Source: Prorocentrum cordatum (Eukaryota; Sar; Dinophyceae; Prorocentrales; Prorocentraceae). Taken from it: a DNA stretch of 64,000 nucleotides. Under the pieces are notes generated by a model. The model searched no databases. It had not been told where the DNA came from and was given only the letters and a program-made list of their open reading frames with translations. This document shows, one piece after another, positions 19,443-57,451 of the stretch. The stretch is from assembly GCA_963575745.1 (NCBI GenBank), contig CAUYUJ010022508.1:58642-122641 (forward strand), in the 5' to 3' direction. Position 1 is the stretch's first letter. Each line of letters opens with the position of its first letter. A program made the position numbers and the translations under genes.

Positions 19443-20215
19443 ATGAATGTTGCGAGAGTTGGTCGCCGTGATGCTAGAGGATTTACCCTATGCAGACAGC
19501 TCCTTCATGAAGGAGTCGCGGCGATTGGCCCCCAGGAGTGCCAGCATTTACTTTTCTCCGATGGGTTCAGACGGCTTGGTTGGCTGGGTTATCGATCCAG
19601 CTGTCTCCGAGCAGGGGTTCTGGTACGGGCACCGTACCAATGCAATATAATTCATACTTGGGTTACCTTAGATAGGATCGCGGGTGTGCTTTTCGGTAAC
19701 GGTGTTTGCTTCTGCAGTGCTTATTTCAAATACAGCTCGTATGATGATTCTCCGACGGATATGGAGACAGTGTGCCGACAGCTGCGGCAAGTGCGCCGTG
19801 AGGCGGTGCAGGGGCTCCCAGGCGCTCGCTTGCTTCTTGTGTGTGACGCCAATGTGGAGCTTACGCCTGGCCTTGTGTCGACCCGGGGGGAGCAGATCAC
19901 GGGGGAGGGGACTTATGATGACACAGCAGAGAGGATATGGGAACGATTCGGAGAGCAGGCGGTGGAGGGAGGAGATGATGGGGGAGCATTTTGAACACTG
20001 CATGAGGGGGGAGGGAATCTGTGCCATCAATACTTTCGCAGCACGGACTCCGACCTACTGGAAGTGGGGGGCCGCCAGCCCTAGCAAAGTGCTAGATTAC
20101 GTTTGCATTCCGACGGCCTGGGGGAGAGGAGAGACCATAGTGAAATGGCTGCGTGGCGGAGTCCACAGCCACTACTCAGATCATGCCTTTCTCAAGTTCG
20201 AGATTCGACCCCAGG
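19443..20215 (+). pseudogene. APE-type endonuclease domain of the LINE, frameshifted
   Basis: The frame from 19443 has the N-terminal pattern of endonuclease/exonuclease/phosphatase proteins: QE at residues 31-32 (AIGPQEC), then LLLVCDANVEL with D135 and N137, the usual D-x-N site. Coding switches frame at about 19945-19985. The second half, in the frame of 19684-20871, has KVLDYVCIP (about 20092) and SDH at 20177-20185, the closing catalytic motif. The fold nicks target DNA to prime reverse transcription. All four motif groups survive, so the frameshift may be the main damage. Confidence 0.7.
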
Positions 20216-37867: not shown

Positions 37868-38930
37868 TTTTTTCCCAACCATCCTTTGGTGTTGGGTCCT
37901 CTTTTTGAAGAGACAGCGCCCCGCGTCTCCTCCTTCCTTCCTTCCTCCTCCCTCCCCCTCCTCCCTTGCTACTTGCGTTTCACGCACCCAGTAGAGCGTT
38001 TCGTGGCCCCATCGGGAACTCCACCGAAGGCCCCAGTGCCACCGCCCGCATGCGTCACCCACACCCTTATCGTCACACCCCTCACACGTTTCGTGGCCCC
38101 ATAGGAAGCTCCTCCGAAGGCCCCAGTGCCACCGCCCGCATGCGTCACCCACACCCTTATCGTCACACCCCTCACACGTTTGGTGGCCCCATAGGGAGCT
38201 CCACCGAAGGCCCCAGTGCCACCGCCCGCATGCGCTACCCACACTAATTTCGTCACACCCCTCACACGATTCGTGGCCCCGTAGGGAGCTCCACCGAAGG
38301 CCCCAGTGCCACCGCCCGCATGCGTCACCCACACCCTTAGCGGCACACCCCTCACACGTTTCGTGGCCCCATAGGAAGCTCCACCGAAGGCCTCGGTGCC
38401 ACCGCTCGCATGCGTCATCACGGCCGTTCCAGTACACCCCAAACGCGTTTCGTGGCCCCATAGGGAGCTCCACCAAAGGCCCCAGTGCCACCACCCGCAT
38501 GCGTCACCCACACCCATTTCGGCACACCCCTCACACGATTTGTGGCCCCACAGGGAGCTCCACCGAAGGGCCCCAGTGCCACTGCCCGCATGCGTCACCC
38601 ACACCCATTCCGGCACACCCCTCACACGTTTCGTGGCCCCATAGGGAGCTCCACCGAAGGCCACCGCCCGCATGCGCCACCCACACCCATTCCGGCACAC
38701 CGCGCCCCTTTCGGCACGTCCCCAGTGGCTGCGTTCGCTTGCGCCCACCGCACCTAGTTCGGTATACCTCTCACGCGTTTCGTGGCCCCATGGGGGATTC
38801 AGCCGACAGCCCAAGTGGCTGCTTTCGAATGCGCCCGCCGCGCAAATTTTGGCACCCCTCATACGTTTCGTGGCCCTATAAGGAACTCCTCCGAATGCGG
38901 TGCATACAACGACGGTGTCAACCACTGCAT
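37868..38930. repeat. 90-bp satellite, about 9-10 copies
   Basis: The landmark 'ACCGCCCGCATGCG' recurs at 38041, 38131, 38221, 38311, 38401 and then about every 90 bp to 38600, with shorter copies to 38900. Each unit has 'TTTCGTGGCCCCATAGGGAG' and 'CTCCACCGAAGGCC'. A ~90-bp leader with 'GTTGGGTCCTC' and 'TTTGAAGAGACAGCGCCCCG' precedes it (37870-37930) and recurs at 38930-39050 and 48765-48860. The 90-bp period keeps frames open on both strands (for example minus 37969-38970); these are not genes. Confidence 0.9.
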
Positions 38931-39055
38931 ATGGTTGGGTCCTTCGCCAGGTTTCTTTGTTCCCGACCATTCCGTCGTGTTGGGTCCTCGTTTTGAAGAG
39001 ACAGCGCCCCGCGTTCCTTCCTCCTCCCGCTGCCCCCTCCCTCCTCCGCGCATCA
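38931..39055. repeat. Satellite leader, second copy
   Basis: About 90 bp with 'TATGGTTGGGTCCTTCGCC' and 'GAAGAGACAGCGCCCCGCG', matching 37870-37930 and 48765-48860. Confidence 0.75.
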
Positions 39056-39058
39056 TCG

Positions 39059-39090
<32 letters not shown>

Positions 39091-39479
39091 TTCATCATCT
39101 TCATCATCCTCATCATCATCCTCATCATCATCCTCATCATCATCATCATCATCCTCGTCATCATCATCATCATCATCACCATCACCATCACCATCACCAT
39201 CATCATCATCACCATCACCATCATCATCATCATCCTTATCCTCATCCTCCTCATCCTCATCATCATCATCATTATCCTCATCATTCTCATCATCTCCATC
39301 AACATCATCATCATCATAATCATCATCATCAGCACCAGCATCATCATCATCAACGTCATCATCACCATCATCCTTATCCTCATCCTCATCCTCATCCTCA
39401 TCATCATCAACATCATCATCATCATGCTCATCATCCTCATCCTCCTCATCATTCTCATCATCACCAAAATCATCATCAT
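39056..39479. repeat. (CAT)n-rich array, left flank of the YR retroelement
   Basis: Imperfect (CAT)n with CCT and CAG variants. A segment at about 39307-39390 (with 'TCAGCACCAGCATC' and 'CAACGTCATC') is repeated immediately right of the retroelement at 46788-46870 and again near 46905, so the element lies inside one continuous array. Confidence 0.9.
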
Positions 39480-39582
39480 CATTGTACGTGCTCGCGCGCT
39501 ATGTGTTGTCCAGCGGGCCCTCCCCACCGTGTGCCGTACCAGGATACGGCTGAACAGAACTCTCCTCAGCCCCTGTTTGCTC
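39480..39582 (+). repeat. Split direct repeat A1
   Basis: 103 bp from CATTGTACGTG to CTGTTTGCTC, identical by eye to A2. It marks the left end of the element; the base before it belongs to the CAT array. Confidence 0.9.
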
Positions 39583-39617
39583 AAGATTTCTTGGGCACCA
39601 GTCTCGCCGCTTCGTGC

Positions 39618-40070
39618 ATGCAGGCGGCGGCCGGCTGGGTTCTTGGGATCCTCGCGTCCCGCTGGTCCGCGCCGGCTCCGCCCGCGGACCCGTCCTGCAC
39701 CTGCATCTTCAGCGGGCACGAGCCGAGCTCGGGCGTGCTGAACATCCTCCGGGAGCAGCTCTCGCGCTGCGGCCCGGAGCACCTCGGGGCGGCCTGCCCC
39801 GCGTGCCCGGCCTGCGTGTGCCCGCAGTGCCCGGCCCCAGTGGCTCCGACCGGGGCCTGGGTGCTCGTGGTCCTCGTCGGGCTCGCGAGCTTCGCCGCCG
39901 GGGTGGCCGCTGCGTCTGCCTGGCTGCCTCGGGCGGGGCCGCCTCGCGCGGTCCTGCCGCCGCGGGCCCTCGCGGAAGGTCCTGCTGGGGAGCTCGTGGG
40001 TGCGGCGACGCCGGCGTCCCTCCAGCGAGTGCGGAGGCGGGCTGGTGCCGTGAATGCCGAGGGCGCTTGA
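39618..40070 (+). CDS. ORF0: Cys-rich protein with one membrane segment
   Basis: The open frame extends up to an ATG at 39501, but that start lies inside repeat A1. The ATG at 39618 leaves 150 codons and seems likelier. The product begins with a hydrophobic stretch (MQAAAGWVLGILASRW). It then has a Cys-Pro cluster (ACPACPACVCPQCPAP) and one strong transmembrane segment (WVLVVLVGLASFAAGVAAA), followed by an Arg-rich tail. It overlaps the gag-like ORF1 start at 40054 by 17 nt, which suggests translational coupling or reinitiation. I do not know this protein from classical DIRS, PAT or Ngaro elements. A role in zinc binding or membrane association is inference only. Confidence 0.55.
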   Translation: MQAAAGWVLGILASRWSAPAPPADPSCTCIFSGHEPSSGVLNILREQLSRCGPEHLGAACPACPACVCPQCPAPVAPTGAWVLVVLVGLASFAAGVAAASAWLPRAGPPRAVLPPRALAEGPAGELVGAATPASLQRVRRRAGAVNAEGA

Positions 40071-41178
40071 CGTTCCCTACGCCCAGTGCCTCGTGCGGTA
40101 CGACGACGACGAGAACTTCCAATGGCACCACAGGGTCCTCCTCGTCAAGGGGCCGGACCAATGGTGGGTGTGGGTGACTCCCGACGGCGAGATCGCGGCA
40201 GCCAACTTGGGTGGCTTCCGCGTGTGTGCCCTCCAGCGAGGGGGCGCCTTCCCCGACCGCTACCGTGGCAATATGTACGTGTTCGACGACGCCGACGTGG
40301 ACGCCGAAGAGATGCACCAGTACTACCGCGAGGCGCGGGCGCTGGGGGACATCCTCGGGTACCCCGCCTCGGCCGCCCCCCTCGCCCGGGACGAGCGTTG
40401 GTTCGTCTCGGACCCGACCTCGGCCCACTACGGCGAGGAGGTGCCCGCGGCCTCAGTTGGCAACGAGGAGGTGCTCATCCGTCGGGGCGAGGTGGGGATC
40501 GTGCAGATCGACGACGTGTGGCAGACGGCGGTGCGGGTCGAGGCCGGCGGCTCCTTCGAGGAGTGGCAGGCCCGAGCACGTGGGGGCCCCGGACGGGACC
40601 CACGTATCGCTGGCGACGAGCGCGACGAGGAGAAGGACCGTTTCATGAGCTTCCGCACCTCCGTGTCGAAGATGCGGGAGCAGACCATCCCTGGGTGGCC
40701 CCTCAAGGGGAAGCGCGCCACGCGCGAGGCCTGCCTCGCTCTTCGGGATGCCGGACAGGAGGGTTGGGACGAACACCATACGACATGGGTCAGGAGGTCC
40801 GGCATCCCGGAGAAGAGCAACACAGCCCGCGAGCACCGGATGCTCTGCTCCGTCCTCCGCATTCTCCAGCAGTTCGACCAGCTGGATCTCTACAACGTGG
40901 CGGGGGTGGAGTACATGGTGCGCCGCATGAAGCAGCTGGAGGCTGCCACCAGGCGCAACCCGCGCCAGCCCGACTTCGACGGGCTCGACGTGGTGCTGGA
41001 TGCCGCGATCGACGAGTCTGGCGGCTTCGTGCTCCCGGTGTTCGACGCCTGGGTCGGCGAGCAGCAGCGGTCCGAGGCGGCCATCATGAAGGCGGGAAGG
41101 CAGTGGCGGGAGGAGACTTCGGCGAGCGGCTCGAAGGAAAAGCCGCCGGAGCATCCCAAGAAGGAGGGCAACGGGTAG
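40054..41178 (+). CDS. ORF1: gag-like structural protein (putative)
   Basis: 374 codons, uninterrupted. The position before the RT polyprotein is that of gag in DIRS-order elements. The N-terminal half is rich in aromatic residues (FQWHHRVLLVKGPDQWWVWV). The middle is charged ('GDERDEEKDRFMSFR') and the second half helical, with 'REHRMLCSVLRILQQFDQL' and 'VEYMVRRMKQLEAATRR'; the C-terminus is Lys-rich. No zinc knuckle or other named motif is visible, so the gag call depends on context. It is separated from ORF2 by 115 bp. Confidence 0.6.
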   Translation: MPRALDVPYAQCLVRYDDDENFQWHHRVLLVKGPDQWWVWVTPDGEIAAANLGGFRVCALQRGGAFPDRYRGNMYVFDDADVDAEEMHQYYREARALGDILGYPASAAPLARDERWFVSDPTSAHYGEEVPAASVGNEEVLIRRGEVGIVQIDDVWQTAVRVEAGGSFEEWQARARGGPGRDPRIAGDERDEEKDRFMSFRTSVSKMREQTIPGWPLKGKRATREACLALRDAGQEGWDEHHTTWVRRSGIPEKSNTAREHRMLCSVLRILQQFDQLDLYNVAGVEYMVRRMKQLEAATRRNPRQPDFDGLDVVLDAAIDESGGFVLPVFDAWVGEQQRSEAAIMKAGRQWREETSASGSKEKPPEHPKKEGNG

Positions 41179-41293
41179 GCGGGCGTGGAGCCCCCTGCCC
41201 TGCCGTCCCAGCCCGCGGGCTCGCCGCCTCGCGCCGCTGGGCCGGCCTTCACGGCGTGGGCTGCTCCACGTCGGCAGTTTTGTTTTCAAGGTC

Positions 41294-44200
41294 ATGGCTC
41301 GTCGCGATCATCGTCGTCACGGTGAGCCTCTTCCACTTCCGGTCCCGCAGCCCTCCGGGTTCGTGGACCTGGCCGACGCGCCGAGGTACCTGGCCCTCCG
41401 TGCTGTACGTCGGCGTTGTCGCGAACACCGACTTCGGGAGGCCGTTCGCTCGGTCAACGACCTCTCCCGTGCTTCGGTCCACGGGTTCGGCAGCGTGCCA
41501 GCCCGTGGCTCCACCACGCCCGGCGAGCCCTCCGCCACGCAGGCCAGCTGCCTCGCTCACATGCGTCGCAACATCGGTCGGCACGGCCCACGGCCGCCTG
41601 GGCTCACACCTCGCGGAGCCCTTCAGGAGCTCCTCAAGTCCGACTCGCTGTATGCCGGGGCGCCCTCCAAAGTCGCGCCCTACAGTGAGGACAAGCTCAA
41701 GTTCTGGAAGTCGAAGATCGTCCCGAAGCGCGTCGAGGACATCTGCCCCGACTTCGTCGTCCGCGCCTTCGCCGACCCCGATCGGTACGTGCGGAAGCCG
41801 GATAGGGTCTTCTTGGCCGACGCGGAGGGGCTCGACCCCATCGTGCCCTACTGGGACCCCCACCTCGCTGGCTCGCGCGACGCGCGGGTCAGGTTTGTCC
41901 GACGCCTGGCGGACCGAGGCCTTGTCGGCTACCGTCGGCGTATTCGTGCTCGCGTGGGCTGCTTCTTCGTCGAGAAGAAGGGAGGGTTCATCAGGCTCGT
42001 GGTCGACGCCCGTGAGACGAATCGGACCCACTGGAGCCCACCGCACGCTGCCCTCGGGACCCCGGCCGCGCTGGCGGAGCAGGACTGGTCGGACGCTGCC
42101 CTGGGAGCCTCCGACGCGACCTCCGCGCCCGCCATCTACGGTGCCTCGCTCGACCTGGCCGACAGCTTCTACCAGTTCTGCTCGGACGCCCTCGCCGAGG
42201 ACTTCGGCATGGACTACCCCGAGTCCGCGTCGGTGTACGGGGCGACGCACGTCTGGGAGGACGGCCACCTCGTCCCCGTCGGCGCCGACGACTTGGTGTT
42301 CCCGACCTTCCGTGGCGTCGCCATGGGCTGGAGTTGGGCGCTGTGGGTCGTTCACTCGTCGGTCACTTCGTGGGTTGGCCACGCGCTCGCGGGCGGGCCT
42401 GCGAGCCTCGTCTTGGACCGACAGCCGCCGCGTCCGGCGGCCCCTGGCAGGCCCGCCGGCTCCGTCTACGTCGACAACGTGGGCATCCTGGGGCTCTCCG
42501 CCGCCGATGCCGCGGCGGGCCTGGCCAGCGTCATGGAGGAGCTCGACCGCCGGGGGATCGTGTACCACGAGGTCTGCGAGCCGTCCCTGGAGTTCGGTAT
42601 GGTGGGCGTGGTGTACGATGGCGTCCGTCGGACTCTGCGTCATTCCGACGAGCGCGCCTGGCGGCTTTACCTCGCCTGCCTGGAGCTGGAGCGCCCGGGC
42701 GTGCCCCGCGCCGCGTGGCAGGTGCGGGTCGTCCTCGGACACTTCATCCAGCACTGCCTTCTGCTGCGGCCGGCCATGTCCATCTTCAGGCACCTCTACA
42801 GGTACGTGGACGAGTGCCGGCTTGGGCCGCCTTCCGCTCTGCCGGGCCCCGCTCGGCAGGAGGTCCGCGTCTTCCGAGGGCTCATCTTCCAGGCAGTCGT
42901 CGATCTCGCCGCGCCCGTGTCGGACATCGTCCTCTGCTCCGACTCCTCCGAGGCGGGCTACGCCCTACATCGCCGGCGCTGCGACCCCGATGCGGTGCGC
43001 CGACTCGCGCGCCTTCGGGAGCGCTGGCGCTTCACGCCCGACGAGAAGCGGCCCGAGGCGTTGGAGGACGACACCTACACGCCCGGCTGGCTTCCTGGCG
43101 CTGGAGGGGTGCTCGGCGAGGGCGACCCCAGCTGCGGCATCGCGACCTGGGCCCCGCCGCCGAGGCGGGCCGACGAGCGCCCCCACGGCACCGTGCGGGC
43201 TCGGGTTGCACAGGCACCGCGGCGTGCGACCTTCGAGGACATCCCCAACGAGCTCGTGGCCCCAGAGGCCTGGTCGCTTGTCGTGGAGGGTGCCTGGAGG
43301 ACGCGAGCGCCCATCCACATCCTTGAGGCCCGGATCGCCCTCGCGGGGCTTCGGCACGCCTCCAGGAGCCTCGAGTGCCACGGGCGCCGCGTCCTCAGCC
43401 TCGGGGACAACATGGCCGAGGTGCTCTCGACCGAGAAGGGCCGCGCCGTTGACGTCGGCCTCGGCTCCGTGTGCAGGCGCAGCGCCGCCGTCCAGGTGGC
43501 CACCGGCATCCGCTGGCGGCGCCGATACCTTGACACGGGGAGGAACGTCAGCGATGGTGGTTCGCGCAAGGCCCTGCAGGGTGTGTACCGCCCTGGGCAG
43601 CGCCGCGTCGGGCCCGGCGCCGCCGTCGCCGGGGCCGCGGGACGGCCTGGTGCGGCTCCGCCCCCGCCGCCGCCGCTGGGACAGGCCGCTGGCGCTGCGG
43701 GCCCCGCTCGGGCTGCCGGCGCCTTGGCGCCGCCTGCCGTCGCGGGGGACCCAGCGCGCCGACGAGGGGGGGAGGATTCAGACCTCCGTCGTCACACCCC
43801 TCGGCCGCTCCCCCGCGACGGTCCGCCGCGGCACCCCAGGCGCGTGCCGGCCGCCCCGCGTGACGTGCTCCTTCGGCGAGGCCGGCAGGGGCCGCGTAAG
43901 CCCGCCTGGCTCGCGCCCCCGCCGGGCCTCTCGGCGCCCTCGGTGGTTTGGCCGAGGCGGCCGCGTCGCGGCCACCTTTTCGCGGGCGCGGGCTCCGCCC
44001 GCCGCCCGCCACCGCCTTGTCGTGGCTCGGCCGGCCGCTGGGGCCGGTGTGGGCCCAGGACGCAGCCAGTCCGAGTGGACGAAACGTCAGATCACGGCCT
44101 GTCTCTCCTCCCTCCTACTACGTCTACGTCCACTACGCCAGCCGCTGCGCGGGCTCCGCGACCCCGGGCTGCCTTGGAGGTCTTCTCGGGCTGCGGGCGC

Positions 44201-45097
44201 TGGACTGGTGCCCTGGCCCAGGCGGGCCTCGTCGTCGCGGCCCCCATGGACATCAAGCACGGGCCCTGGTGCGACCTCCTCAACCCGAAGGTCGAGTCCC
44301 GGGTGCGTTCCTGGATCACCTCTCGGGCTGTCTGGTTCGTCCATTTCGGCACCCCGTGCACCCCGTGGTCTATCTCTCGGCGAGGGGCTCGCGAGGTCTC
44401 CGCCATCAGGGCTGCCCGTCGGTGTGCTCACGTCACGGTGCGTCTCCTGGAGGTCTGCAGCCGCTACGGGATCCACTGGTCTCTGGAGAACCCTCAGTCC
44501 TCGGGCCTCTTCCGCTGGGCCCCGCTCCGGAAGTTCTTGGACCAGCACTCGCGCTCCTGGGCTACCTACCACTGCTGCCGGTTTGGGGCGCCCTACAAGA
44601 AGCCCACTACTGTCGTCTCAAGCCTGGGGGCCCTGCACGACATCGGCCTGCTCTGCGAGGGGGGCCACAGGCACGAGCACCTGTCTGGGAAGGTGCGCGT
44701 CCGTACGTCCAAGGGGGGGCTCAAGCATCAGTGGAAGACCACGTTGGCCGGCGCGTACCCTCCGGGCGTCTGCCACCTTGCCGCCAGCATCCTGGCGGCA
44801 GCGGCGCCGCGTGGCGCCAGGAGGCCAGATGGTGCTCCACTACTCGAGGAACGATGGCAGGCTGACCTCTGCCGGGCGGCGGGCTGCGACTTCGGCCCTC
44901 GGGCGCTCCCGTGCCCGGCCTGCCCCTCGCGCTGGGCCCCGCTCTGGAGGGCGGACGCCGAGCAGTGGGGCGGCGTCTGGGGGCCCTCGAGGCCCCCCGC
45001 TGGAGGACGCTCCGTCCGTGGGCCGCGGGCCAGTGCTCCGACGCCCCGCCGCTGCCGATGCCGCGCGGAGGCCTCGCGTCCGGCGGGAGCCCGCTGA
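41294..45097 (+). CDS. ORF2: reverse transcriptase-RNase H-C5 cytosine methyltransferase polyprotein
   Basis: 1267 codons. RT: CFFVEKKGGFIRLVVDARE (about 224-242), motif A SLDLADSFYQF with D287, motif B FRGVAMGWSWALWV, and motif C VYVDNVGIL with Y392-V-D-N395, where DIRS-type RTs usually have DD. RNase H: CSDSS (D550), ILEARIAL (E678), LGDNMAE (D705) and NVSDGGS (D754), all four acidic positions present. A Pro/Arg-rich linker of about 200 residues follows. Methyltransferase: ALEVFSGCGRWTGAL (from ~961, SAM-binding motif I), GTPCTPWS with catalytic-type C1022 (motif IV) and SLENPQSSG with E1065 (motif VI position). Together these copy RNA to DNA, remove RNA and may methylate the new DNA at cytosine. 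The 3' part overlaps ORF3 by 269 bp in another frame. Confidence 0.85.
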   Translation: MARRDHRRHGEPLPLPVPQPSGFVDLADAPRYLALRAVRRRCREHRLREAVRSVNDLSRASVHGFGSVPARGSTTPGEPSATQASCLAHMRRNIGRHGPRPPGLTPRGALQELLKSDSLYAGAPSKVAPYSEDKLKFWKSKIVPKRVEDICPDFVVRAFADPDRYVRKPDRVFLADAEGLDPIVPYWDPHLAGSRDARVRFVRRLADRGLVGYRRRIRARVGCFFVEKKGGFIRLVVDARETNRTHWSPPHAALGTPAALAEQDWSDAALGASDATSAPAIYGASLDLADSFYQFCSDALAEDFGMDYPESASVYGATHVWEDGHLVPVGADDLVFPTFRGVAMGWSWALWVVHSSVTSWVGHALAGGPASLVLDRQPPRPAAPGRPAGSVYVDNVGILGLSAADAAAGLASVMEELDRRGIVYHEVCEPSLEFGMVGVVYDGVRRTLRHSDERAWRLYLACLELERPGVPRAAWQVRVVLGHFIQHCLLLRPAMSIFRHLYRYVDECRLGPPSALPGPARQEVRVFRGLIFQAVVDLAAPVSDIVLCSDSSEAGYALHRRRCDPDAVRRLARLRERWRFTPDEKRPEALEDDTYTPGWLPGAGGVLGEGDPSCGIATWAPPPRRADERPHGTVRARVAQAPRRATFEDIPNELVAPEAWSLVVEGAWRTRAPIHILEARIALAGLRHASRSLECHGRRVLSLGDNMAEVLSTEKGRAVDVGLGSVCRRSAAVQVATGIRWRRRYLDTGRNVSDGGSRKALQGVYRPGQRRVGPGAAVAGAAGRPGAAPPPPPPLGQAAGAAGPARAAGALAPPAVAGDPARRRGGEDSDLRRHTPRPLPRDGPPRHPRRVPAAPRDVLLRRGRQGPRKPAWLAPPPGLSAPSVVWPRRPRRGHLFAGAGSARRPPPPCRGSAGRWGRCGPRTQPVRVDETSDHGLSLLPPTTSTSTTPAAARAPRPRAALEVFSGCGRWTGALAQAGLVVAAPMDIKHGPWCDLLNPKVESRVRSWITSRAVWFVHFGTPCTPWSISRRGAREVSAIRAARRCAHVTVRLLEVCSRYGIHWSLENPQSSGLFRWAPLRKFLDQHSRSWATYHCCRFGAPYKKPTTVVSSLGALHDIGLLCEGGHRHEHLSGKVRVRTSKGGLKHQWKTTLAGAYPPGVCHLAASILAAAAPRGARRPDGAPLLEERWQADLCRAAGCDFGPRALPCPACPSRWAPLWRADAEQWGGVWGPSRPPAGGRSVRGPRASAPTPRRCRCRAEASRPAGAR

Positions 45098-46082
45098 CTA
45101 CAACCCAGGCTTCCTCCGGCGCTCGAGGGTCACCGCCACGACCGCCGAGCGGTACCACGCCAGCCTGCACGAGTTCGCCGCGCAGATGGGCCTGGACCCG
45201 GCGCGCTGGACCGCCCGTGACCTCCCCGCCGTCGACGCCGCCCTCGACCGCTTCCTCGAGGAGCTCTTCGTTGCCGAACGGTCGCGGGGCGATGCTCGGT
45301 ATGCGCTCGCGGCTGTCGCCGACCATTTCAACGTCAGCCTCCGCCAGCCAGGGGTCCTCCCGCTCGCTCGCGCCGCCATGGCTGGCTGGGGCAAACTGGA
45401 GCCTGACTCGACTTCGGACCCCCTTCCATGGTCGGCCGCTGTGCTGATGGCGCACCACCTGTCGCGGACTGGCGTCGAGTCCGACCTCGAGGCTGCCCGC
45501 GGCCTCGTTGTGCAGTTCGACACCTACCTGCGGCCCTCGGAGCTGGTGCTCATGCCTCTGGTCGCCTGCTTCACGCCAGGCATGCACGCTGGCGTTCACT
45601 ACAACAAGTACGGGATGGTCGTCGCGCCGTCCAGTCAGGTGGCCGGCCAGCTCATCGGCATCCGCACCAGCAAGACTGGCGTGCAGGACGACACCGTCCT
45701 CTTTGACGATGCCAGTCGGCCTGGCGTAGTCGGCGCTTTTGCCGCGCTGGTCCGCCAGGCCCGCCGTGCCCGCTCGCAGACGCTGCTTCCTAGTCACACG
45801 TATGTCTCGTACAATAGAGTGCTGCAGCGGGCCGCCGAGGCCGTCGGCATCCCTTTCAAAGTCACGCCTCACCTCGCCAGACACGGAGGCCCCAGTGAGG
45901 ACTTCCTCCGCCGTGCCAGGTCGTTGCCCGAGATCCAGGCGCGTGGGCGCTGGGCCTCGTTCCGCAGCGTGCAGAGGTACGAGAAAGCCGGCCGCCTCCT
46001 CGCGGCCATCCGAAAGCTTCCGCCTGCTGTCCGGTCCGCAGCCTGCAAGGCCGAGGCTCGCGGTCTTTCTTTTCTAGCGTGA
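44829..46082 (+). CDS. ORF3: tyrosine recombinase
   Basis: 418 codons from the ATG at 44829; the frame is open much further upstream (to 40086) only because the GC-rich DNA lacks stops there. From about 45090 the protein reads as a tyrosine recombinase. It has a helical core-binding part (TTAERYHASLHEFAAQMG), catalytic R235 (TYLRPSEL), H348-x-x-R351 (HLARHGG) and nucleophile Y384 (VQRYEKAG). The second His/Trp position is filled by Trp in GRWASF. This enzyme would integrate a circular DNA intermediate and replaces the DDE integrase of LTR elements. It overlaps ORF2 by 269 bp, so expression may need reinitiation or frameshifting. Confidence 0.9.
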   Translation: MVLHYSRNDGRLTSAGRRAATSALGRSRARPAPRAGPRSGGRTPSSGAASGGPRGPPLEDAPSVGRGPVLRRPAAADAARRPRVRREPADYNPGFLRRSRVTATTAERYHASLHEFAAQMGLDPARWTARDLPAVDAALDRFLEELFVAERSRGDARYALAAVADHFNVSLRQPGVLPLARAAMAGWGKLEPDSTSDPLPWSAAVLMAHHLSRTGVESDLEAARGLVVQFDTYLRPSELVLMPLVACFTPGMHAGVHYNKYGMVVAPSSQVAGQLIGIRTSKTGVQDDTVLFDDASRPGVVGAFAALVRQARRARSQTLLPSHTYVSYNRVLQRAAEAVGIPFKVTPHLARHGGPSEDFLRRARSLPEIQARGRWASFRSVQRYEKAGRLLAAIRKLPPAVRSAACKAEARGLSFLA

Positions 46083-46172
46083 GTAACTTTTCATTGAATC
46101 GTTTCTTTGCGGCCGTGGGCCAGTGGAGTGTTATGGGAATTTCTCCCCAGCTGCTCTCCAGACTGTGATACG
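46083..46172. other. 3' non-coding gap of the YR element
   Basis: Ninety bases between the ORF3 stop and repeat B1. It is T-rich at its start ('AACTTTTCATTGAATCG'); no motif recognised. Confidence 0.5.
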
Positions 46173-46402
46173 GGACTTGGTTGGCCGCCGCCTTTTCGGC
46201 CCTGGCGATCCTGGACCTCAGTCGCCGGTGGCCCCTCGGAGCGGCTAGCCTCTCTCTCTCACAAGTCGCCAGCGACGTGGTCGCCTGGAGAGTGGAAAAT
46301 ACATCGTCCAGGTGCGACGGGCCGTGGCCCGACCGTTCCCCTCTCGCCCTGTCGATCTCTCCATGGCGGCCTCTCTGGTGGGGGCGTTATACAAGTCAAC
46401 AT
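46173..46402 (+). repeat. Split direct repeat B1
   Basis: 230 bp from GGACTTGGTTGG to AAGTCAACAT, identical by eye to B2. Its last bases (CAT) are shared with the start of A2. Confidence 0.9.
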
Positions 46403-46502
46403 TGTACGTGCTCGCGCGCTATGTGTTGTCCAGCGGGCCCTCCCCACCGTGTGCCGTACCAGGATACGGCTGAACAGAACTCTCCTCAGCCCCTGTTTGC
46501 TC
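46400..46502 (+). repeat. Split direct repeat A2
   Basis: 103-bp copy of A1, nested between B1 and B2. In elements of this type this internal pair is thought to template the ends during reverse transcription through a circle. Confidence 0.9.
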
Positions 46503-46559
46503 CCCGCCCGCGTGCCACCCTTTGCACATAGGTACTGAATGTTCTGTTAATGAGCTGCT

Positions 46560-46789
46560 GGACTTGGTTGGCCGCCGCCTTTTCGGCCCTGGCGATCCTG
46601 GACCTCAGTCGCCGGTGGCCCCTCGGAGCGGCTAGCCTCTCTCTCTCACAAGTCGCCAGCGACGTGGTCGCCTGGAGAGTGGAAAATACATCGTCCAGGT
46701 GCGACGGGCCGTGGCCCGACCGTTCCCCTCTCGCCCTGTCGATCTCTCCATGGCGGCCTCTCTGGTGGGGGCGTTATACAAGTCAACAT
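46560..46789 (+). repeat. Split direct repeat B2, right end of element
   Basis: 230-bp copy of B1. The element ends at 46789 (AACAT), and CAT-repeat DNA (AATCATCATC) resumes at once. A 57-bp gap separates it from A2. Confidence 0.9.
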
Positions 46790-47228
46790 AATCATCATCA
46801 TCAGCACCAGCATCATCATCATCAACGTCATCATCATCATCATCCTTATCCTCATCCTCATCCTCATCCTCATTCTCATCATCACCATCAACATCATCAT
46901 CATCATAATCATCATCATCAGCACCAGCATCATCATCATCATCATCAACGTCATCATCATCATCATCCTTATCCTCATCCTCATCCTCATCCTCATCCTC
47001 ATCATCATCATCATCAACATCATCATCATCATCATGCTCATCATCCTCATCATCCTCATCATCGTCATCAGCATCGTCCTCATCATCAGCATCATCGTCT
47101 TCATCATCATCATCATCACCAGCACCATAATCATCATCCTCATCATCACTATCATCATCATCATCACCTCATCATAGACATCATCATCATTATCATCATC
47201 ATCCTCATCCTCATCCTCAACCTCACCC

Positions 47229-47259
<31 letters not shown>

Positions 47260-47437
47260 CATCATCATTATCAGCATCATCCTCATCCTCATCATCATTC
47301 TTATCGTCATCATCAGCATCATCACCATCGTCACCAGCGTCATCATCATCGTCATCATCAACATCATCATCATCATCATCACCAGCACCACCATCAACAT
47401 CATCATCACCACCATCATCATCATAATAATTTTAGTG

Positions 47438-47510
<73 letters not shown>

Positions 47511-47513
47511 CCC
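46790..47513. repeat. (CAT)n-rich array, right flank of the YR retroelement
   Basis: Imperfect (CAT)n with a higher-order period of about 115-120 bp (word 'TCAGCACCAGCATC' at 46801 and ~46918). It ends in a purer run at 47437-47510. Poly-His, poly-Met and poly-Ile frames are artefacts. Confidence 0.9.
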
Positions 47514-48515
47514 TCACGAGGATCGTGGCCCCATAAAAGCTCCACCGAAGGCGCCAAAAACAAAGTGCGCATGGCAGCCTCGGGCCATGTCGGCACAGCC
47601 CTCACGAGGATCGAGGCCCCATAGGAGCTCTACCGAAGGCGCCAGTAGCAAAGTGCGCATGGCGGCCTCGGGACATTTCGGCACACCCCTCACGAGGACC
47701 GTGGCCCCATAGGAGCTCCGCCGAAGGCGCCGCCAGTAGCAAAGTGCGCATGGCGGCCTCGGGCCATTTCGGCACACCCCTCACGAGGATCGTGGCCCCA
47801 TAGGAGCCCCACCGAAGGCCCCAGTAGCAAAGTGCGCATGGCGGCCTCGGGCCATTTCGGCACACCCCTCACGAGGATCGGGGCCCCATAGGAGCTCCAC
47901 CGAAGGCGCCAGTAGCAAAGTGCGCATGGCGGCCTCGGGCCTTTTCGGCACACCCCTCACGAAGATCGTGGCCACAGAGGAGCTCCACCGAAGGCGCCAG
48001 TAGCAAAGTGCGCATGGCGGCCTCGGGACATTTCGGCACACCCCTCACGAGGACCGTGGCCCCATAGGAGCTCCGCCGAAGGCGCCGCCAGTAGCAAAGT
48101 GCGCATGGCGGCCTCGGGCCATTTCGGCACACCCCTCACACGTTTCGTGGCCCCTTGGGGAGCCCCACCGAAGGCGCCAGTAGCAAAGTGCGCATGGCGG
48201 CCTCGGGCCATTTCGGCACACCCTTCACGAGGATCGTGGCCCCATAGGAGCTCCGCCGAAGGCGCCAGTAGCAAAGTGCGCATGGCGGCCTCGGGCCATT
48301 TCGGCACACCCCTCACGAGGATCGTGGCCCCATGGGAGCTCCGCCGAAGGCGCCAGTAGCAGAGTGCGCATGGCGGCCTCGGGCCATTTCGGCACACCCC
48401 TCACGAGGATCGTGGCCCCATAGGGGGCTCCACCGAAGGCCCCCAGTGGCAGGGTTCCCATGGCGGCCCCGGGCCATCTCGGCACACCCCTCACGAGGAT
48501 CGTGGCCCCAAGGTT
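47514..48515. repeat. 88-bp satellite, about 11 copies
   Basis: Units with 'CCCTCACGAGGATCGTGGCC', 'AGGAGCTCCACCGAAGGCGC' and 'AAAGTGCGCATGGCGGCCTC' repeat every 88 bp (for example near 47511, 47599, 47687). It is a clear relative of the 90-bp satellite at 37868-38930. Open minus-strand frames of 86-146 codons step by 88 bp and reflect the repeat. Confidence 0.9.
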
Positions 48516-50198: not shown

Positions 50199-51895
50199 TG
50201 CTTTGCCGGGATATTTTTTTATTCCTATTCTTATTATTATTCTTATTCTTATTCTTATTCTTAGTCTCACTCTTAGTCTTACTATTATTATGATTCTTCT
50301 TATCTTTTTTCTAATTCTAAGTCTTGTTCTCATTCTTAGTTTTATTCTTATTATTATTCTTATTCTCATTCTGATTATTATTCGCATTCTAGTTCTAATC
50401 CTTATTAGTATTATGCTTATTCCTATTCTTATTCATATTCTTATTCTTATTCATATTCTTATTCTTATTCTTATTCTTATTCTTATTCTTATTCTTATTC
50501 TTATTTTTATTCTTATTCTTATTCTTATTCTTATTCTTATTCTTATTCTTATTCTTATTCTTATTCTTATTCTTATTCTTATTCTTATTCTTCTTCTTAT
50601 TATTATGCTGATTCTCATTCTTATTCTTATTCTTATTCTTATTATTATTCTTATTCTTATTCTTATTCTTATTCTTATTCTTATCCTTATCCTTATCCTT
50701 ATCCTCATTATTATCCTTATCCTTATCCTTATCCTTTTCTTTATCCTTATCCTTATCCTTATCCTTATCCCTATCCTTATCCTTATCCTTATCCTTATCC
50801 TTATCCTTATCCTTATCCTTATCCTTATCCTTATCCTTATCCTTATCCTTATCCTTATCCTTATCCTTATCCTTATCCTTATCCTTATCCTTATCCTTAT
50901 CCTTATCCTTATCCCTTATCCTTATCCTTATCCTTATCCTTATCCTTATCCTTATCCTTATCCTTATCCTTATCCTTATCCTTATCCTTATCCTTATCCT
51001 TATCCTTATCCTTATCCTTATCCTTATCCTTATCCTTATCCTTATCCTTATCCTTATCCTTATCCTTATCCTTATCCTTATCCTTATCCTTATCCTTATC
51101 CTTATCCTTATCCTTATCCTTATCCTTATCCTTATCCTTATCCTTATCCTATATCCTTATCCTTATCCTTATCCTTATCCTTATCCTTATCCTTATCCTT
51201 ATCCTTATCCTTATCCTTATCCTTATCCTTATCCTTATCCTTATCCTTATCCTTATCCTTATCCTTATCCTTATCCTTATCCTTATCCTTATTCTTGTCC
51301 TTGTCCTTGTCCTTGTCCTTATCCTTATCATTATTCTTATTCTTATTCTTATTCTTATTCTTATTCTTATTCGTATTCTTATTCTTATTCTTATTAGTAT
51401 TATTAGTCTTATTCTTATTCTTTTTCTATTCCTATTCTTATTCTTTTTCTCATTCTTATTCTTATTCTTATTCTTATTCTTATTCTTATTCTTATTCTTA
51501 TTCTTATTCTTATTCTTATTCTTATTCTTATTCTTGTTCTGATTCTTATTCTTATTCTTATTCTTATTCTTATTCTTATTCTTATTCTTATTCTTATTCT
51601 TATTCTCATTCTTATTCTTATTCTTATTCTTATTCTTATTCTTATTCTTATTCTTATTCTTATTCTTATTCTTATTCTTATTCTTATTCTTATTCTTATT
51701 CTTATTCTTATTCTTATTCTTATTCTTATTCTTTTTCTTATTCTTATTCTTATTCTGATTCTTATTCTGATTCTCATTCTTATTCTTATTCTTATTCTTA
51801 TTCTTCTTATTCTTATTCTTATGCTTTTTCTTATTCTTATTCTTATTCTTATTATTATTCTTATCATCTTCTTACTCGTGTTGTCATTCTTATTT
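50199..51895. repeat. TTATTC/TTATCC hexanucleotide array, 1.7 kb
   Basis: Three zones: TTATTC-rich (50215-50680), nearly pure TTATCC (50685-51290, with single-base phase breaks at about 50914 and 51150) and TTATTC-rich again (51325-51890). The 568-codon plus frame through it (Leu-Ile, Pro-Tyr, Ser-Leu dipeptides) is an artefact. Confidence 0.95.
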
Positions 51896-52768
51896 ACCTA
51901 ACAGCGTAGACTGATAGGTTTCTAGTTGACTCAAAAGAGCTCACAGATCACTCCACAGGGGGGTCCGGGCAGGCGTTGGGAGTTGCCGGCCGGGCCTGTG
52001 CCGGGCTTGTTTTTCACCAGCAGTCACACACTTCGTGCTCGTCGACCTCTCAGAACCCCATTCCCAGGCCACATTCTGAATAACCGGATGCAACAGTCAT
52101 ACACTTCGTGCTCTTCGACTTCCCAGAACTCCATTCCCGGGCCACATTTTGAATGCCCGGAGCCAACTGTAGGCCACTTCGTGGTCTTCGAGTTCCCAGA
52201 ACTCCATTCCCGGGCCACATTTTGGATGCCCGGAGCCAACTGTAGGCCACTTCGTGGTCTTCGAGTTCCCAGAACTCCATTCCCGGGCCAGATTTTGGAT
52301 GCCCGGAGCCAACTGTAGGCCACTTCGTGGTTTTCGAGTTCCCAGAACTCCATTCCTGGGCATGAATTTGAATGCCCGGAGCCAACTGTAGGCCACTTCG
52401 TGTTCTTCGAGTTCCCAGAATTCCATTCCCGGGCCACATTTTGAATGCTGAGGCAGGCTGAGGCTGAGGCTGAGGCAGGCTGATGCTGAGGCAGGCTGAG
52501 GCTGAGGCCGAGGCCGATGAGGCTGAGGCAGAGGCTGAGGCTGAGGCTGAAGGCAGGGCTGAGGCTGAGGCTGAGGCAGGAGGCTGAGGCTGAGGCAGGC
52601 TGAGGCTGAGGCTGAGGCTGAGGCTCTGAGGCTGACTGCCTGTTGCCGCTGCGATTGTCATCGCGAATGCGACTACGACTGCGAGAGCAGCACAATTCTA
52701 CAACTGGATTCTCATCTGAATCTTAAGTGGGGTGCTTCCAGATATGCTCCTACACATCGCTGTTAGGT
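51896..52768. mobile_element. TIR-bounded block, copy 2
   Basis: Same order as copy 1: ACCTAACAGCG start, 73-bp repeats (52028-52445), GAGGCT minisatellite (52446-52630), unique tail, TCGCTGTTAGGT end. It is shorter because the minisatellite is contracted. Confidence 0.5.
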
Positions 52769-52778
52769 TGCTTTGCCG

Positions 52779-52816
52779 TTTTTTTTTTTTTTTTTTTGGG
52801 GGGGGGGGGGGGGGGG
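52779..52816. repeat. T19-G19 homopolymer junction
   Basis: Nineteen T followed directly by nineteen G; on the minus strand this is C19 then A19. It is placed exactly where the minus-strand LINE RT frame is cut off. Confidence 0.9.
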
Positions 52817-55800
52817 CACGCAGGGGGCCACCAGCCTCCTCAGCACGTCTCCCGTCACGATGCCTCTCACCCTCCCGTTCGGCTTGGTTGGCGCCGTGAG
52901 CTGCCCCAGGGTCAAAGCTTCCGCCACTGGTCCTGGTAGCCTTGCCGGCGCCATCCTCGTCGCCGCGTGGTACAGTAAGCCGCAGGCCTGCTTGTCTCCC
53001 AGTAGCGCTTGCAGGTGCTCGCCAGTCAAGCCCGACGCGCCCGGGGCGGCGCCCCTGCGGCAGCCGCAGAGGTTGCGGAGGAGTTTGTTGGACTCGAGGA
53101 GGACAGGCTCCGGGCGCAAGGCTGCCAGGTCCGCTCTCAGCCGCCCCCGCGGTTCGGCGAGCCGTCGTGCTGGGCCCCGCAGCTCCGCCAACGTGGCCTC
53201 GGTTCCTGGTGCGATCGTGCTGGCCGTGAGGGCTTGGCGCGCTGCCGAGACGTCTCCTTGCTGTACCAAGGCGTGCGCCCTCGCGCAGCGCTGGGACAGC
53301 TCCTCGTCGCTCCCTGCCGGCATCCGCCCGCGGTCTCCTCCGCGACGCCTTCGGGCTGGGGATGCAAGCAGGGGCGCCCGGTCGCCCGCCTCGAATCGGG
53401 CAAACCGTTCCAGCAGCTGTTCTTTGGGCACCGTGCGGGTGCCGGGGTCTTTGCTCAGCAGCATGCGTGGGATCAGGAAGAGGAGCTTCCAGCCTCGGAG
53501 CTGGCGTGCTTCGTTGGCCTCCCCTCCGTGGATCTCCCTGAGCGCTTCGCGCAGCGCGTTGCGCAGGGGTCCTCAGAGGAATGCTGGCGCGCGCTCTGCA
53601 GTGTGGCCACGCGCTGCCTCAAAGCTGCCTGCAAGTCCGCTCCGTCCAGCGCCTCTCTCTCTGCCCTGCGTAGCGTTTCCCTCTGGGGAGGGCGTCGGCC
53701 TCTCGGCCCCTGTGTTGCCCCTCCGCCGTCGCCCTCTTCCTCTTCCTCTTCCTCCTCCCCTGCTTCTGCGGCCCTGGGGGCTCCCGCCGCTGCGGGGCGG
53801 GCGCTTGTGGTGGCCCGTGCGGGTCTGGGGTCCGGCCCGGGTCTGCTCTGTCGGCCTGGCCGTCGCCGCTGCCCCCGCAGTCTTTTCCGGGGCCTTCTCC
53901 CCTCCCCCCCCCGCCGCCTCCTTGCCTGCTCTGCCACCTCTTCGTCCTCGGCCTCCTCGGGCGTTCCTTCCTCTTCTGGCGCCTCCTCCGCTCGCGCCGT
54001 CGTTCTGTTCTGGCCCTGGGGGCGCCTGCGGCGGCGGCAGGGGCGGGTGCGGCTCGGCCGCCGCCCACGCCGCGGGGCTGCGCAGTTCCTCCGTGCGTGC
54101 GTCCACACCCCTCGCGAGCACCAGGCCGCCAAACGCTTCGAGGATGATGTCTTGCACCATCGGCTGTATGTAGCCTGTGCTGCTGTGCGCCACGGCCTGG
54201 GCGACTGGCGCAAAGGATACATGGCCTGGGCGTTCTCCCCCGTCTGCAGCGAGCACTGCTGGTACTTCCCCGGGCCGGGCGTCGGTGTACGCGAGCATCT
54301 GGACGAAGGGCCCCGTTGGCACAGGTTTAGCAGGCCGCAGCGTCTCGACCGTTGGCTGCCACCCGGCCTGCGTGAGGCGGTGCTCTCTCCACTGCGCCCC
54401 GTCGCTTGGGTCTAGAAGCCCGGCGGCCGCCAGCAGCAGGGACACGTGCACCGCCGAGTTGGTGCGTGCATGGAGGGGCGCTTGCAGCAGGGCCCAGCAG
54501 GCGAAAAGGCTGTGCTGTGGCGGCCTCGCGGCGGCCCGCTCTGGCCCTGGCGGGGGGGCTGGTGGTGGGGCGTCGGCTGCGGTGGCTGATCGCGCAGCGC
54601 ACCTTATGTAGGGGGCGTGGTCCGCCCCGCCTGCGTGCGCGTCGTCCTCGAGGCGGGCCTCTCCCAGCGGCCTGCGAGGGGGGGGGGTGGGGGAGGGCTG
54701 GGCGCTGCGTAGCCGCCATCTCTGGCACCGCGCCGCCAGGCACACTTTGTGCGCCCCGCCCAACGAGCGCTGGCTGCCTCGCCCTCGCCCCGGCGAGATC
54801 GGGCCGGGGGGCGCGGGGGGCGCTGGCGGTCTGCAGCCACTGGCTTCCCGCGTTCCTGTGGGTTCGAGCAGGGGATGTCGCCAGTGGCGAGGAGGCCGCC
54901 GCTGCCTCGTTGCTTTCTTGCTTGCTTTGTGATGCGGCGGGGGGCAGACAGGGGCGTGAGAGAACGCGTCCTGTGCTGCGCCAGCCGCACGCTCTGGGGC
55001 GCCACCGGGTGGGGCGGCAACGTGGGGGCGCGGCGCGCCGGGGGCGGCGGGCGGCCGCGGCGGGCGGCCGCGCGCGGACCCGGGCGCCGCCAGCGTATGA
55101 AACTGAAACTGAAACTGCGGCGGCCTGTGGGGTGGCAGGCACTTCTCTTGTCCATGCGTCTGGTTCGCACCGTCCGCACCTTCATTTGCCTTCGGCCGTG
55201 CTGGCTTCCGCGGCCCACGTGCCCAGCCCCGGGCACCTCGCGCACACTTGTTCGCCGCTCGGAGGCTCGATCGCGTCGAGAGCGCCGCGCGCCCCGCAAC
55301 GCCCGCAAAGCCATGACTCCAGCCACTGTGTGATCCTCCCGCTGGTGTCTCGTGCTGCGATCCATTCCATGCGGCGGGCGGGCACTTCGGAGAAATCGGG
55401 CGATGGGCCGAGGCGTCGGCAGCAGAGCGCTCGGAGTAACGGAGGTTCGGGTGGTGGTGGTGGTTCTTCGCCCCGCGCGTAACTCCGAAACCCGTTGTCG
55501 TCTGGGGCGGCCTGGGCGCTGGTGCTGTGGGCCGGGGGCGGCCGTCGGTCTATGTCCACGCCCTGCGCCGCGCACCGCGCCCGTAGCTCAGCCGTGGTTG
55601 GAAGTCTGGCTCGGCACTGCGGGCAAGTTGTGGCTTCGCCCAGGTGGCGGGCCAAGACAGTGCGGCAGCCCAAGTGGAAGTGGGCGACTGCGCGCCCGCT
55701 CGCGAGTCTGGCGTGGCGAACCTTTCAGGTGCCGACAACATGTGCGGCGGCGTCTCCGCGGGCGCTGGTACCAGGGCAGACTCCCCCGATCTGCGTTCTG

Positions 55801-56068
55801 GCGTGCCCGGCGGCTCGTCGGCTGGCCCGGGGTTGCCTGGGTGGCTGGCTTCGCCGACCCGTTGTCCGCGGTAGCCGTGCGGCGCCTCCCGTGGACTCCT
55901 CGCCAGTGCGCACTGCTCCTGTCGTGGTGGTGGCGGTGCTGGTGCTGGCGCTGGTGCTGGTGGCGGCGCTGCTGGTCGCTGTCGCGGTGCTGCTGCTGGT
56001 CGCTGTCTTGGCGGTGGCGTTGGTGTTTCTGCTGGTCGGTGTCGCAGGGTGTCGTCGTGGTGGTTGCC

Positions 56069-56131
<63 letters not shown>

Positions 56132-56470
56132 GTGGTGGTGGTGGTGGTGGTGCTGCTGCTGCTGCTGCTGCTGCTGGTCGTCGTGGTGGTGCCGCTGCAG
56201 CTGGTCACGGTGGCGACGCTGCCGCTGGTGATGGTTGTCGTGGTGGTGGTGTTGCTGCTGATGTTGCTGCTTGTCGTCGTTGTGGTGGTGGTGCTGGTCG
56301 TCGTCGTTGTGCTGCTGCTCGTGGCGCCACTGTTGGGAGTCGTGCCGCCTCTTGTGGTCGAAAATGTTGCTGCGTTGCTCCTGTGGGCTTGCTGCGCAAG
56401 CCGGGGTGCCTCTGGAGACCGCAGCGGAGCCGCTCCCTCCTTGGGAACGGGGCTCTCCCCCTGGAGAGTT
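52817..56470 (-). pseudogene. LINE-B, 3'-truncated: zinc-finger N-terminus and start of RT
   Basis: Read on the minus strand: Gln/His repeats from the CTG array, then 'RVGEASHPGNPGP' (55820-55865). A RING-like stretch ends TTCPQCRARLP (about 55600-55640), a second Cys cluster 'WLCGRCGAR..VCARC' lies at about 55250-55330, and a long Pro/Ala-rich linker follows. Next come 'LVQQGDVSAARQAL' and RT N-terminal motifs GAAPGASGLTGEHL and GRVRGIVTGDVLRRL. The RT is cut at 52817, before its catalytic motifs, by the C19-A19 tract. At least one frameshift (near 55690) and one in-frame TGA (53573-53575) interrupt it. It resembles the LINE at 62478 (RPIAVGEVLRRL). Confidence 0.7.
55920..56310. repeat. CTG/GTG trinucleotide array inside LINE-B
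   Basis: Imperfect array with a pure (CTG)n core at 56069-56125. On the minus strand it encodes Gln/His-rich sequence within the 5' part of the LINE-B frame. Confidence 0.85.
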
Positions 56471-56479
56471 AAAAAAACA

Positions 56480-56865
56480 GGCTCTAACGTGAGTCTGGAT
56501 TCCCGGATCCCGGATTCCGGATTCCAGATTCCGGATTCCCGGATTCCGGATTTCCGGATTCCGGATTTCGGATTCCGGATTCCCGGAATTTGGATTCAGG
56601 ATCCCCACATTCCGCAGTCCGGATTCTGGATTCCCGGATTTCGGATTCCCCGATTCCGGATTCCGGATTCCCGGATTCCGGATTCCCGGAATCCGGATTC
56701 TGGATTCCCGGATTCCGGATTCCAGATTCCAGAATCCGGTGTGCCGGAATCCGGTTCCCGATTCCAAATTCCGGATTTCGGATTCCGGATGCCCGGATTT
56801 CGAATTCCCGGGTTTCGGATTCCGTATACCCGGATTCCGGATTCCAGAATCCGGTTCCCCCGATT
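56480..56865. repeat. GGATTCC minisatellite, left block
   Basis: Variants of GGATTCCGGATTCCCGG. TCCGGA is palindromic. The same repeat resumes at 60042, so LINE-A interrupts one array. Confidence 0.9.
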
Positions 56866-57451
56866 TTTCATTTCATTTCATACCGCAGCGACGGGGGCCG
56901 GAGCACCGCGCGACCGCGCGCGCCGCCCCAGCGCGCCCCCCCGCGCGCGGCCCGCTCAGGTCGCAGCCGCCCCTGCGCTCCCGGGGCAGGGCCGCGGGGC
57001 CGACCCCGTCTCGGGAAGGGTCTTTCACCCCCGTCGTGGGTCGGCCCAGGCACCACCGCGGGCAACGGCGCCCTGGCCTCGCGGCCAGTGCGACCCCTCC
57101 CCGACCGGCACCTCAGAGGGCAAAAAGGGAGGGGCGGCGCAGCGGGCGGCGGGGTGCAAGGGGGGGGGCAGAGTTCGCTCCTCCCCCTCCCCGGCCGCTC
57201 GCGGCACGGGGACGGACAGCAGCCAGGAGGCCGCGCGAGCGGTCGAAAGAGGAAAAGAAAAAGGGGGGGACAAGGCACCAGGCATTGGGCAGCCAGATGG
57301 CTTGGGGGAAGACCGCCGCCACAGACGCACAGAGCAACGCGGCTGCACTGGGCCCCTGGGCGCGGCAGCCTCGCCCAGCCCTTAAAAGAACAAAGGCCAC
57401 TCGCAGTCAGATCCCAACCGGATCCAGCGCCACAAGCGGCGGTGAAATTGC

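Follow-up and report, generated by a model that had tools for sequence, protein, structure and literature searches.

A DIRS-order tyrosine recombinase retrotransposon with split direct repeats and a POL-borne methyltransferase-like domain in Prorocentrum cordatum

A complete tyrosine recombinase (YR) retrotransposon of DIRS order occupies positions 39482-46788 of a 64,000-nucleotide stretch of Prorocentrum cordatum contig CAUYUJ010022508.1 (the window), laid out as A1-ORF0-ORF2-POL-YR-B1A2-B2, with A and B as split direct repeats, ORF standing for open reading frame, and POL combining reverse transcriptase (RT), RNase H and a methyltransferase (MT). The element is real and this anatomy is confirmed. 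We hold it very probable that it is a complete, autonomous element from an old MT-bearing superfamily of its host and that it moves by the cycle proposed below. Direct observations carry this reading: the anatomy, further copies that end identically, enzymes under selection, repeats nearly identical within each copy, a junction rule and three comparisons with uninterrupted sites. The element is of a known kind, with a plan close to that of SymbioDIRS-Dnmt3, and what makes it interesting is not a new kind of element but a fixed YVDN motif in the RT, an MT that has diverged, the rule followed at the junctions and a YR frame without stops.

In the proposed cycle, element RNA would be reverse-transcribed by the RT-RNase H with its YVDN catalytic site, and the internal B1A2 block would serve as template when the two ends are joined, yielding a circle in which B meets A as GTCAAC-AT-TGTACG. 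The YR would recombine this circle junction with two adjacent target bases, for which A|T is preferred, resulting in precise insertion without duplication. Cytosines in the complementary DNA or in new copies are probably methylated by the MT of POL. Several points weigh against this reading. The element is known here from genomic sequence alone, from which we infer the circle, the order of the steps, methylation and present mobility. No Pfam family matched the RT at E <=10, with HMMER filters dropping most weak matches, so that the RT was identified by motifs and position. The hhalign comparisons of the MT with five phage enzymes (pairwise E 1.5e-4, probability 51%) and with E. coli Dcm (pairwise E 0.0012, probability 19%) are weak in absolute terms (the unrelated HchA gave E 0.67 and 0.07%), and a single-sequence AlphaFold model of the MT, with a predicted local distance difference test (pLDDT) score of 31.7, was not used. 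Finally, D211N in the Ty1 RT, the change matching YVDN, is described as lowering kpol 223-fold and abolishing transposition (PMC2148107).

Repeats, copies and insertion junctions

A1 and A2 are 100% identical across 103 bp and B1 and B2 are 100% identical across 230 bp (Table 1). An earlier note made from the letters of the window had claimed these identical pairs, the order A1-ORFs-B1-A2-B2 and four open ORFs, and all of this holds, with ORF0, ORF2, POL and YR open in the window copy. The note placed the ends at 39480 and 46789; the element is indeed complete, while the mobile unit is best written 39482-46788. The start of ORF0 is better set at 39618, because the first ATG falls within A1 and some copies carry indels after it that change the frame.

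The genome of the same organism (4,128,499,153 bases in 21,875 contigs) was searched with the element DNA, which gave at least 19 copies (25 matches), and all 19 were fetched (L001-L019). Each of them starts with TGTACGTGCTCG, finishes with GTCAAC and sits in different flanks, and an element with 19 such copies is not a chance arrangement. The earlier note had called the element a complete, young YR retroelement with split direct repeats and had asked whether other copies end differently; none of the 19 copies does, and its description is supported. The copies fall into four subfamilies (L001-4, L005-11, L012-14 and L015-19), with POL identity of 93-97% between subfamilies and at least 98.3% within them. 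All ORFs are open in 18 of the 19; the ORF2 of L010 has an internal stop. Within a copy, B1 and B2 have 0-2 aligned differences in 16 of 19 (4 in L009, 5 in L012, deleted in L011), one difference arising partly by construction since the 229-base comparison stretch reached one base past the repeat. Between copies, the B repeats differ at 11-22 positions when the subfamily of the window copy or that of L015 is compared with others, and at 2-6 positions among L005-L012. The window copy is thus apparently recent, and it may still be mobile. L011 carries an internal deletion in the A2-B2 region with both outer ends intact. L002 and L004 are near-identical copies lying a few bases apart in opposite orientation, inside copies of what looks by eye like one and the same inverted-repeat element.

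A search of the same genome with the MT protein returned 9154 candidates at first look; scoring 150 of them gave 150 matches. At least 28 of these span the whole domain at >=96%, the 19 copies among them. For the other nine only the ends were sampled, which yielded both junctions in four cases (two left stretches ran past contig ends, two read N and one right end was not found). Fourteen loci of other families (L021-L034, including some close pairs) were also picked by their MT, which leaves families without an MT outside the sample. Three of the four full-size loci among them (L021, L023 and L024) have split repeats.

When the element is written T-TGTACG...GTCAAC-A, it sits between two adjacent target bases N1|N2, and nothing is duplicated or lost. 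Among 23 two-ended copies, the target was A|T in 20, C|A in two (L003 and L019) and A|A in one (C15666); C13117 and C19259 have a common right flank, and C19259 alone was counted. All three exceptions to A|T have A as the second target base. C15211, whose right end was not found, has a C on its left side too. Uninterrupted relatives of the site were available for L002 (inverted, from its own right flank), L018 (from a flank of L005) and L003 (inverted, from its own right flank). Those for L002 and L018 contain a single AT each, and that for L003 reads GTGTCAACTCAT, which fits entry between C and A with one mismatch. Other site matches were left unused as simple repeats (L001, L005, L006, L010-L012, L016) or gapped (L004), and eight copies had none. 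Only non-AT cases can place the crossover point; from the three copies that are informative, the junction set locates it with single-base precision for a YR retroelement, between the two target bases. By eye, an AT at the same junction position also fits L021, L023 and L024. Entry at the junction core with no duplicated target bases, and split direct terminal repeats with an internal copy of the junction, are both expected of a DIRS-order element, and both are observed here. A preference for CAT microsatellites was considered for the CAT-rich site of the window copy and dropped, as only L001 and L005 of the 19 copies lie in CAT-rich arrays.

The ratio of nonsynonymous to synonymous change (dN/dS) was computed among one representative per subfamily. 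ORF2 gave 0.058-0.088, RT-RNase H 0.074-0.100, the MT 0.022-0.087 and the YR past its overlap with POL 0.057-0.099, values which indicate purifying selection on all four; the MT is thus under constraint as strict as that on the RT. The POL N-terminus gave 0.050-0.124, the linker 0.32-0.45, the POL tail 0.37-1.02, the part of YR overlapping POL 0.37-0.75 and ORF0 0.19-0.80. ORF0 is recognisable by eye in L021 and L023 through an ILRxQLxRCGPE stretch. ORF2, which had no match among Pfam and PHROG profiles, is probably a Gag-like protein, to judge from its position only. The YR matched NF040815 XerA at E 2.7e-4, far below the cut-off of that profile, and PF00589 at E 0.011, also below cut-off, and a single-query search of solved structures returned only an integrase (3nkh, E 0.043). 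The intact R/HxxR/Y recombinase claimed earlier is present as R/HxxRH/W/Y. Motifs show the combination of RT-RNase H with a tyrosine recombinase that defines the DIRS order in all 19 copies and also, though not without exceptions, across families.

Table 1. Features of the element and its flanks, in window coordinates
Feature	Position	Strand	Remarks
Left target flank	39050..39479	+	CAT-rich microsatellite; similar uninterrupted stretch within the same array
A1, left split direct repeat, 103 bp	39480..39582	+	equals 46400-46502; start common to 19/19 copies
Mobile unit	39482-46788 (T...A)	+	flanked by target A 39481 and target T 46789
ORF0	39618..40070	+	small protein rich in Cys; has a hydrophobic stretch that probably spans a membrane; open from this ATG in 19/19 copies
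ORF2, 374 aa	40054..41178	+	open in 18/19 copies; tblastn homologue in 14/14 other-family loci
Stop-free frame, 2003 codons	40071..46079	+	the YR frame, over ORF2 and POL; in 19/19 copies
POL, 1267 aa	41294..45097	+	RT, RNase H, linker, methyltransferase; open in 19/19 copies
RT palm motifs A (LDLADSF) to C (YVDN)	42149..42478	+	19/19 copies; YVDN in 13/14 other-family loci
RNase H, D-E-D-D	42935..43567	+	motif columns across families, some rows departing
C5-methyltransferase-like domain (FSGCG, TPCTPWS, LENP)	44147..44839	+	phrog_757, hhalign, dN/dS 0.02-0.09
YR ORF, tyrosine recombinase	44829..46082	+	weak profile matches; R, HLARH, GRW, Y in 19/19 copies
B1 split direct repeat, 230 bp	46173..46402	+	100% identical to B2
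A2 split direct repeat	46400..46502	+	B1/A2 meeting point carries circle-junction-like GTCAAC-AT-TGTACG
B2, right split direct repeat	46560..46789	+	last base of the mobile unit is A 46788
Right target flank	46790..47500	+	same microsatellite as on the left

The methyltransferase domain and the nearest known relative

The MT of the window copy (METHYLTRANSFERASE), searched as a single sequence, matched phrog_757 at E 5e-5 and phrog_363 at E 0.0018; it had no Pfam match, the cut-off of PF00145 not being reached, and a single-query search of solved structures returned nothing. An alignment of 14 members was built from the window copy and 13 of the 14 other-family loci (L026 was left out). phrog_757 matched 11 of the 14 and PF00145 one (E 0.011), while the best solved structure for the MT profile was DNMT2 at a non-significant E of 0.19. 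In the 14 rows P70, C71 and E114 are invariant and N115 nearly so, in the motif order of C5 enzymes, and motifs I, IV and VI are in register with those of phage MTs and E. coli Dcm. The C5-methyltransferase of the earlier note therefore stands as C5-type by motifs and profiles, with support that is weak. The domain looks phage-like and seems too divergent for Pfam: it shares with the phrog_757 phage C5-MTs the motifs I, IV and VI, with ENP, in register and a similarly small size, but identity to one of them, aligned pairwise, is 32% and the hhalign match ends after motif VI. Viral contigs were searched for relatives of the MT, RT and YR, and prokaryote genomes for the MT as well, and none was confirmed. 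The RT and MT trees have three main clades in common, which speaks for joint descent from one old acquisition.

The earlier note regarded the combination of an MT with split repeats as outside the textbook form. That much is right, but it was overstated, because such elements were published for Symbiodinium in 2018 (de Mendoza et al.; PMC5890265). According to that description, SymbioDIRS-Dnmt3 has A-coding-B-A-B repeats, an MT inside POL next to the RT, a separate YR ORF and purifying selection on the MT, all as in the window element. This raises the possibility that the window element is a SymbioDIRS-Dnmt3 member, an element of the same kind with a host-derived Dnmt3 domain, which we regard as unlikely while giving it real weight. 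The published MTs were found with PF00145 and placed in the Dnmt3 clade (PMC5890265), whereas PF00145 detects one of the 14 aligned members, not including the window copy, and phrog_757 detects 11; the DNMT2 structure match is not significant either, and the comparison with SymbioDIRS is one with its description. In the account consulted, SymbioDIRS-Dnmt3 is credited neither with YVDN in motif C nor with a YR frame lacking stops. The domain points to a captured cytosine-methyltransferase-like sequence, and this capture may well be separate from the Dnmt3 captures known in dinoflagellates. A limited search of the open-access literature found no report joining Prorocentrum with DIRS.

The stop-free recombinase frame

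The YR frame, +1 to POL, is free of stops across ORF2 and POL, and the number of stops expected over POL was estimated from synonymous-codon shuffles. In each of the four subfamilies there were 0 stops compared with 7.3-8.7 expected (7.3 for the window copy), and 0 or 1 of 2000 shuffles were as low. Two other families behaved in the same way, L021 having 0 against 7.0 and its second copy L057 0 against 8.1 (0/4000 shuffles), and L024 having 0 against 14.6 and its second copy L056 0 against 15.6 (0/4000 shuffles). By contrast, the main POL pieces (247-1110 codons) were not depleted at ten other loci of the same genome (P 0.31-0.995), these ten being tested from twelve remaining loci of which L030 and L033 had no open piece.

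A rather unlikely explanation, for which there is nonetheless some evidence, is that high GC together with codon context, and not selection, keeps the frame open. GC at third codon positions (GC3) is 0.84, and many ORFs have too few stops in their +2 frames, several of them roughly half the expected number; POL and several unrelated ORFs of the window belong here, and a few short ones among the latter are low in +1 too. Two MT pieces also count against the contrast between families, a 284-codon piece of L029 with 1 stop against 5.1 (P 0.006) and one of L034 that is slightly depleted (13 against 16.8, P 0.096). Because +2 depletion is common, the 0 stops against 5.5 expected in ORF2, whose overlap is in +2, are weak evidence. 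What this explanation does not accommodate is the complete lack of +1 stops over POL in three families, repeated in a second copy of two of them, alongside observed numbers close to expectation in the main POL pieces of the other ten loci. The stop-free frame is a statistical signal in three families, and it raises the question of how the YR is made. Its bearers do not form one clade on the tree, and L024 is a long branch.

Separate expression of the YR is possible, for example by spliced-leader trans-splicing, a trait of this host, and the YR ATG at 44829 has a counterpart in L021. Another proposal, which we make tentatively and consider doubtful, is that the superfamily runs on a permanent, transposition-competent YVDN RT and that some families have selected a stop-free YR frame over ORF2 and POL, so that slipping ribosomes end in YR; if true, this would be a distributed, site-free route to Gag- or Pol-YR fusions. 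Overlap of YR and POL is itself described as common in DIRS elements (PMC6681497) and as present in half of 28 (PMC3266345), and the unusual part is the length of the overlap together with demonstrable avoidance of stops. Three further ideas were dropped or lacked support. ORF0 readthrough as the source of the long frame was dropped, as the ORF0 of L021 lies in a different frame from YR; so was selection on a protein encoded by the overlapping frame, because that frame is altered by changes synonymous in POL and such changes are frequent; and a giant protein from one 5' ATG is unsupported, since the upstream ATGs of the long frame are not visibly common to families. In L023 (1266-6938) the roles are exchanged: the frame of POL, instead of that of YR, is open for 1891 codons over ORF2 and most of YR.

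The YVDN reverse transcriptase, other DIRS-order elements and neighbouring sequences

The earlier note linked split direct repeats in this order with Ngaro/PAT-type elements; assignment to Ngaro is improbable. The order A1-[ORFs]-B1A2B2 is that given for Ngaro repeats (PMC8547959) and is the order of the window element, and PAT-like and Ngaro elements have split direct repeats, a YR and RT-RNase H in common with it. However, Ngaro elements are described as lacking an MT and usually lacking ORF overlap (PMC3266345), and the window element has both, its POL and YR ORFs overlapping; the separation is one by description. DIRS1-like elements resemble it in joining a YR with RT-RNase H-MT, in overlapping frames in about half of 28 and in insertion at a junction sequence without duplication (PMC3266345), but they are described with inverted repeats, a 3-bp junction and motif C YL/IDD in 25 of 28 (PMC3266345), and with a Dam-like MT (PMC5890265). 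The repeats of the window element are direct, so that it lacks the inverted terminal repeats and internal complementary region (ICR) of the DIRS1 type, and its motif C reads YVDN.

The RT of the window copy has a clear motif A Asp, motif B MGWSWAL, motif C YVDN and RNase H acids, and a single-query search of solved structures returned nothing for it. The acidic sites reported earlier as intact, the motif A Asp and the RNase H D-E-D-D, are present; the Asn of motif C, reported as an exception, is there as well, but as the conserved state of the sampled superfamily. YVDN was found in all 19 copies, in 13 of the 14 other-family loci and in the further copies L056 and L057, although other-family loci beyond the nearest clade lie at least 1.7 changes per site from the window copy on the RT tree. 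The sole YVDD, in L022, belongs to a copy broken into several frames and nested beside L021, which has YVDN. The motif thus appears to be a fixed feature of the sampled superfamily and not damage. A limited literature search turned up YVDN RTs only in nematode BEL/Pao elements (Cer7-12 and Atlas virus), some of them described as intact (PMC554778, PMC9094657), and no report of an Asn in motif C of a YR element was among the literature matches listed. The BEL/Pao elements share the Asp-to-Asn change in partly intact elements but are long terminal repeat elements, not YR elements, and we take them as an independent case.

The family might also be dead, with YVDN as the sign of an inactivated RT and helper elements doing the multiplying. 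This would agree with the Ty1 mutant cited above but is very improbable given RT-RNase H dN/dS of 0.07-0.10 among subfamilies, other catalytic residues kept in 19 copies (L011 departs in one RNase H pattern), YVDN in 13 of 14 divergent loci of which most keep the motif A and RNase H acids (exceptions include L022, L027, L030 and L032), and a single YVDD confined to a broken copy beside a YVDN one. Since intact, close natural copies carry the substitution that cripples Ty1, YxDN-driven retrotransposition becomes testable.

Elsewhere in the window, long ORFs lie at 50203-51909, 52773-54173 and 55352-57385, for which a Pfam search of the ATG-started forms gave nothing at E 0.1. At 20694-23390, an ORF of about 900 aa with an RVT_1 (reverse transcriptase) match (E 2.3e-10) overlaps a 376-aa upstream ORF at 19741 and apparently belongs to a retroelement of a different kind. 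An 88-91-bp repeat has copies at 38500-38900 and 47511-47800, so that it brackets the CAT-rich array to the left and right of the element.

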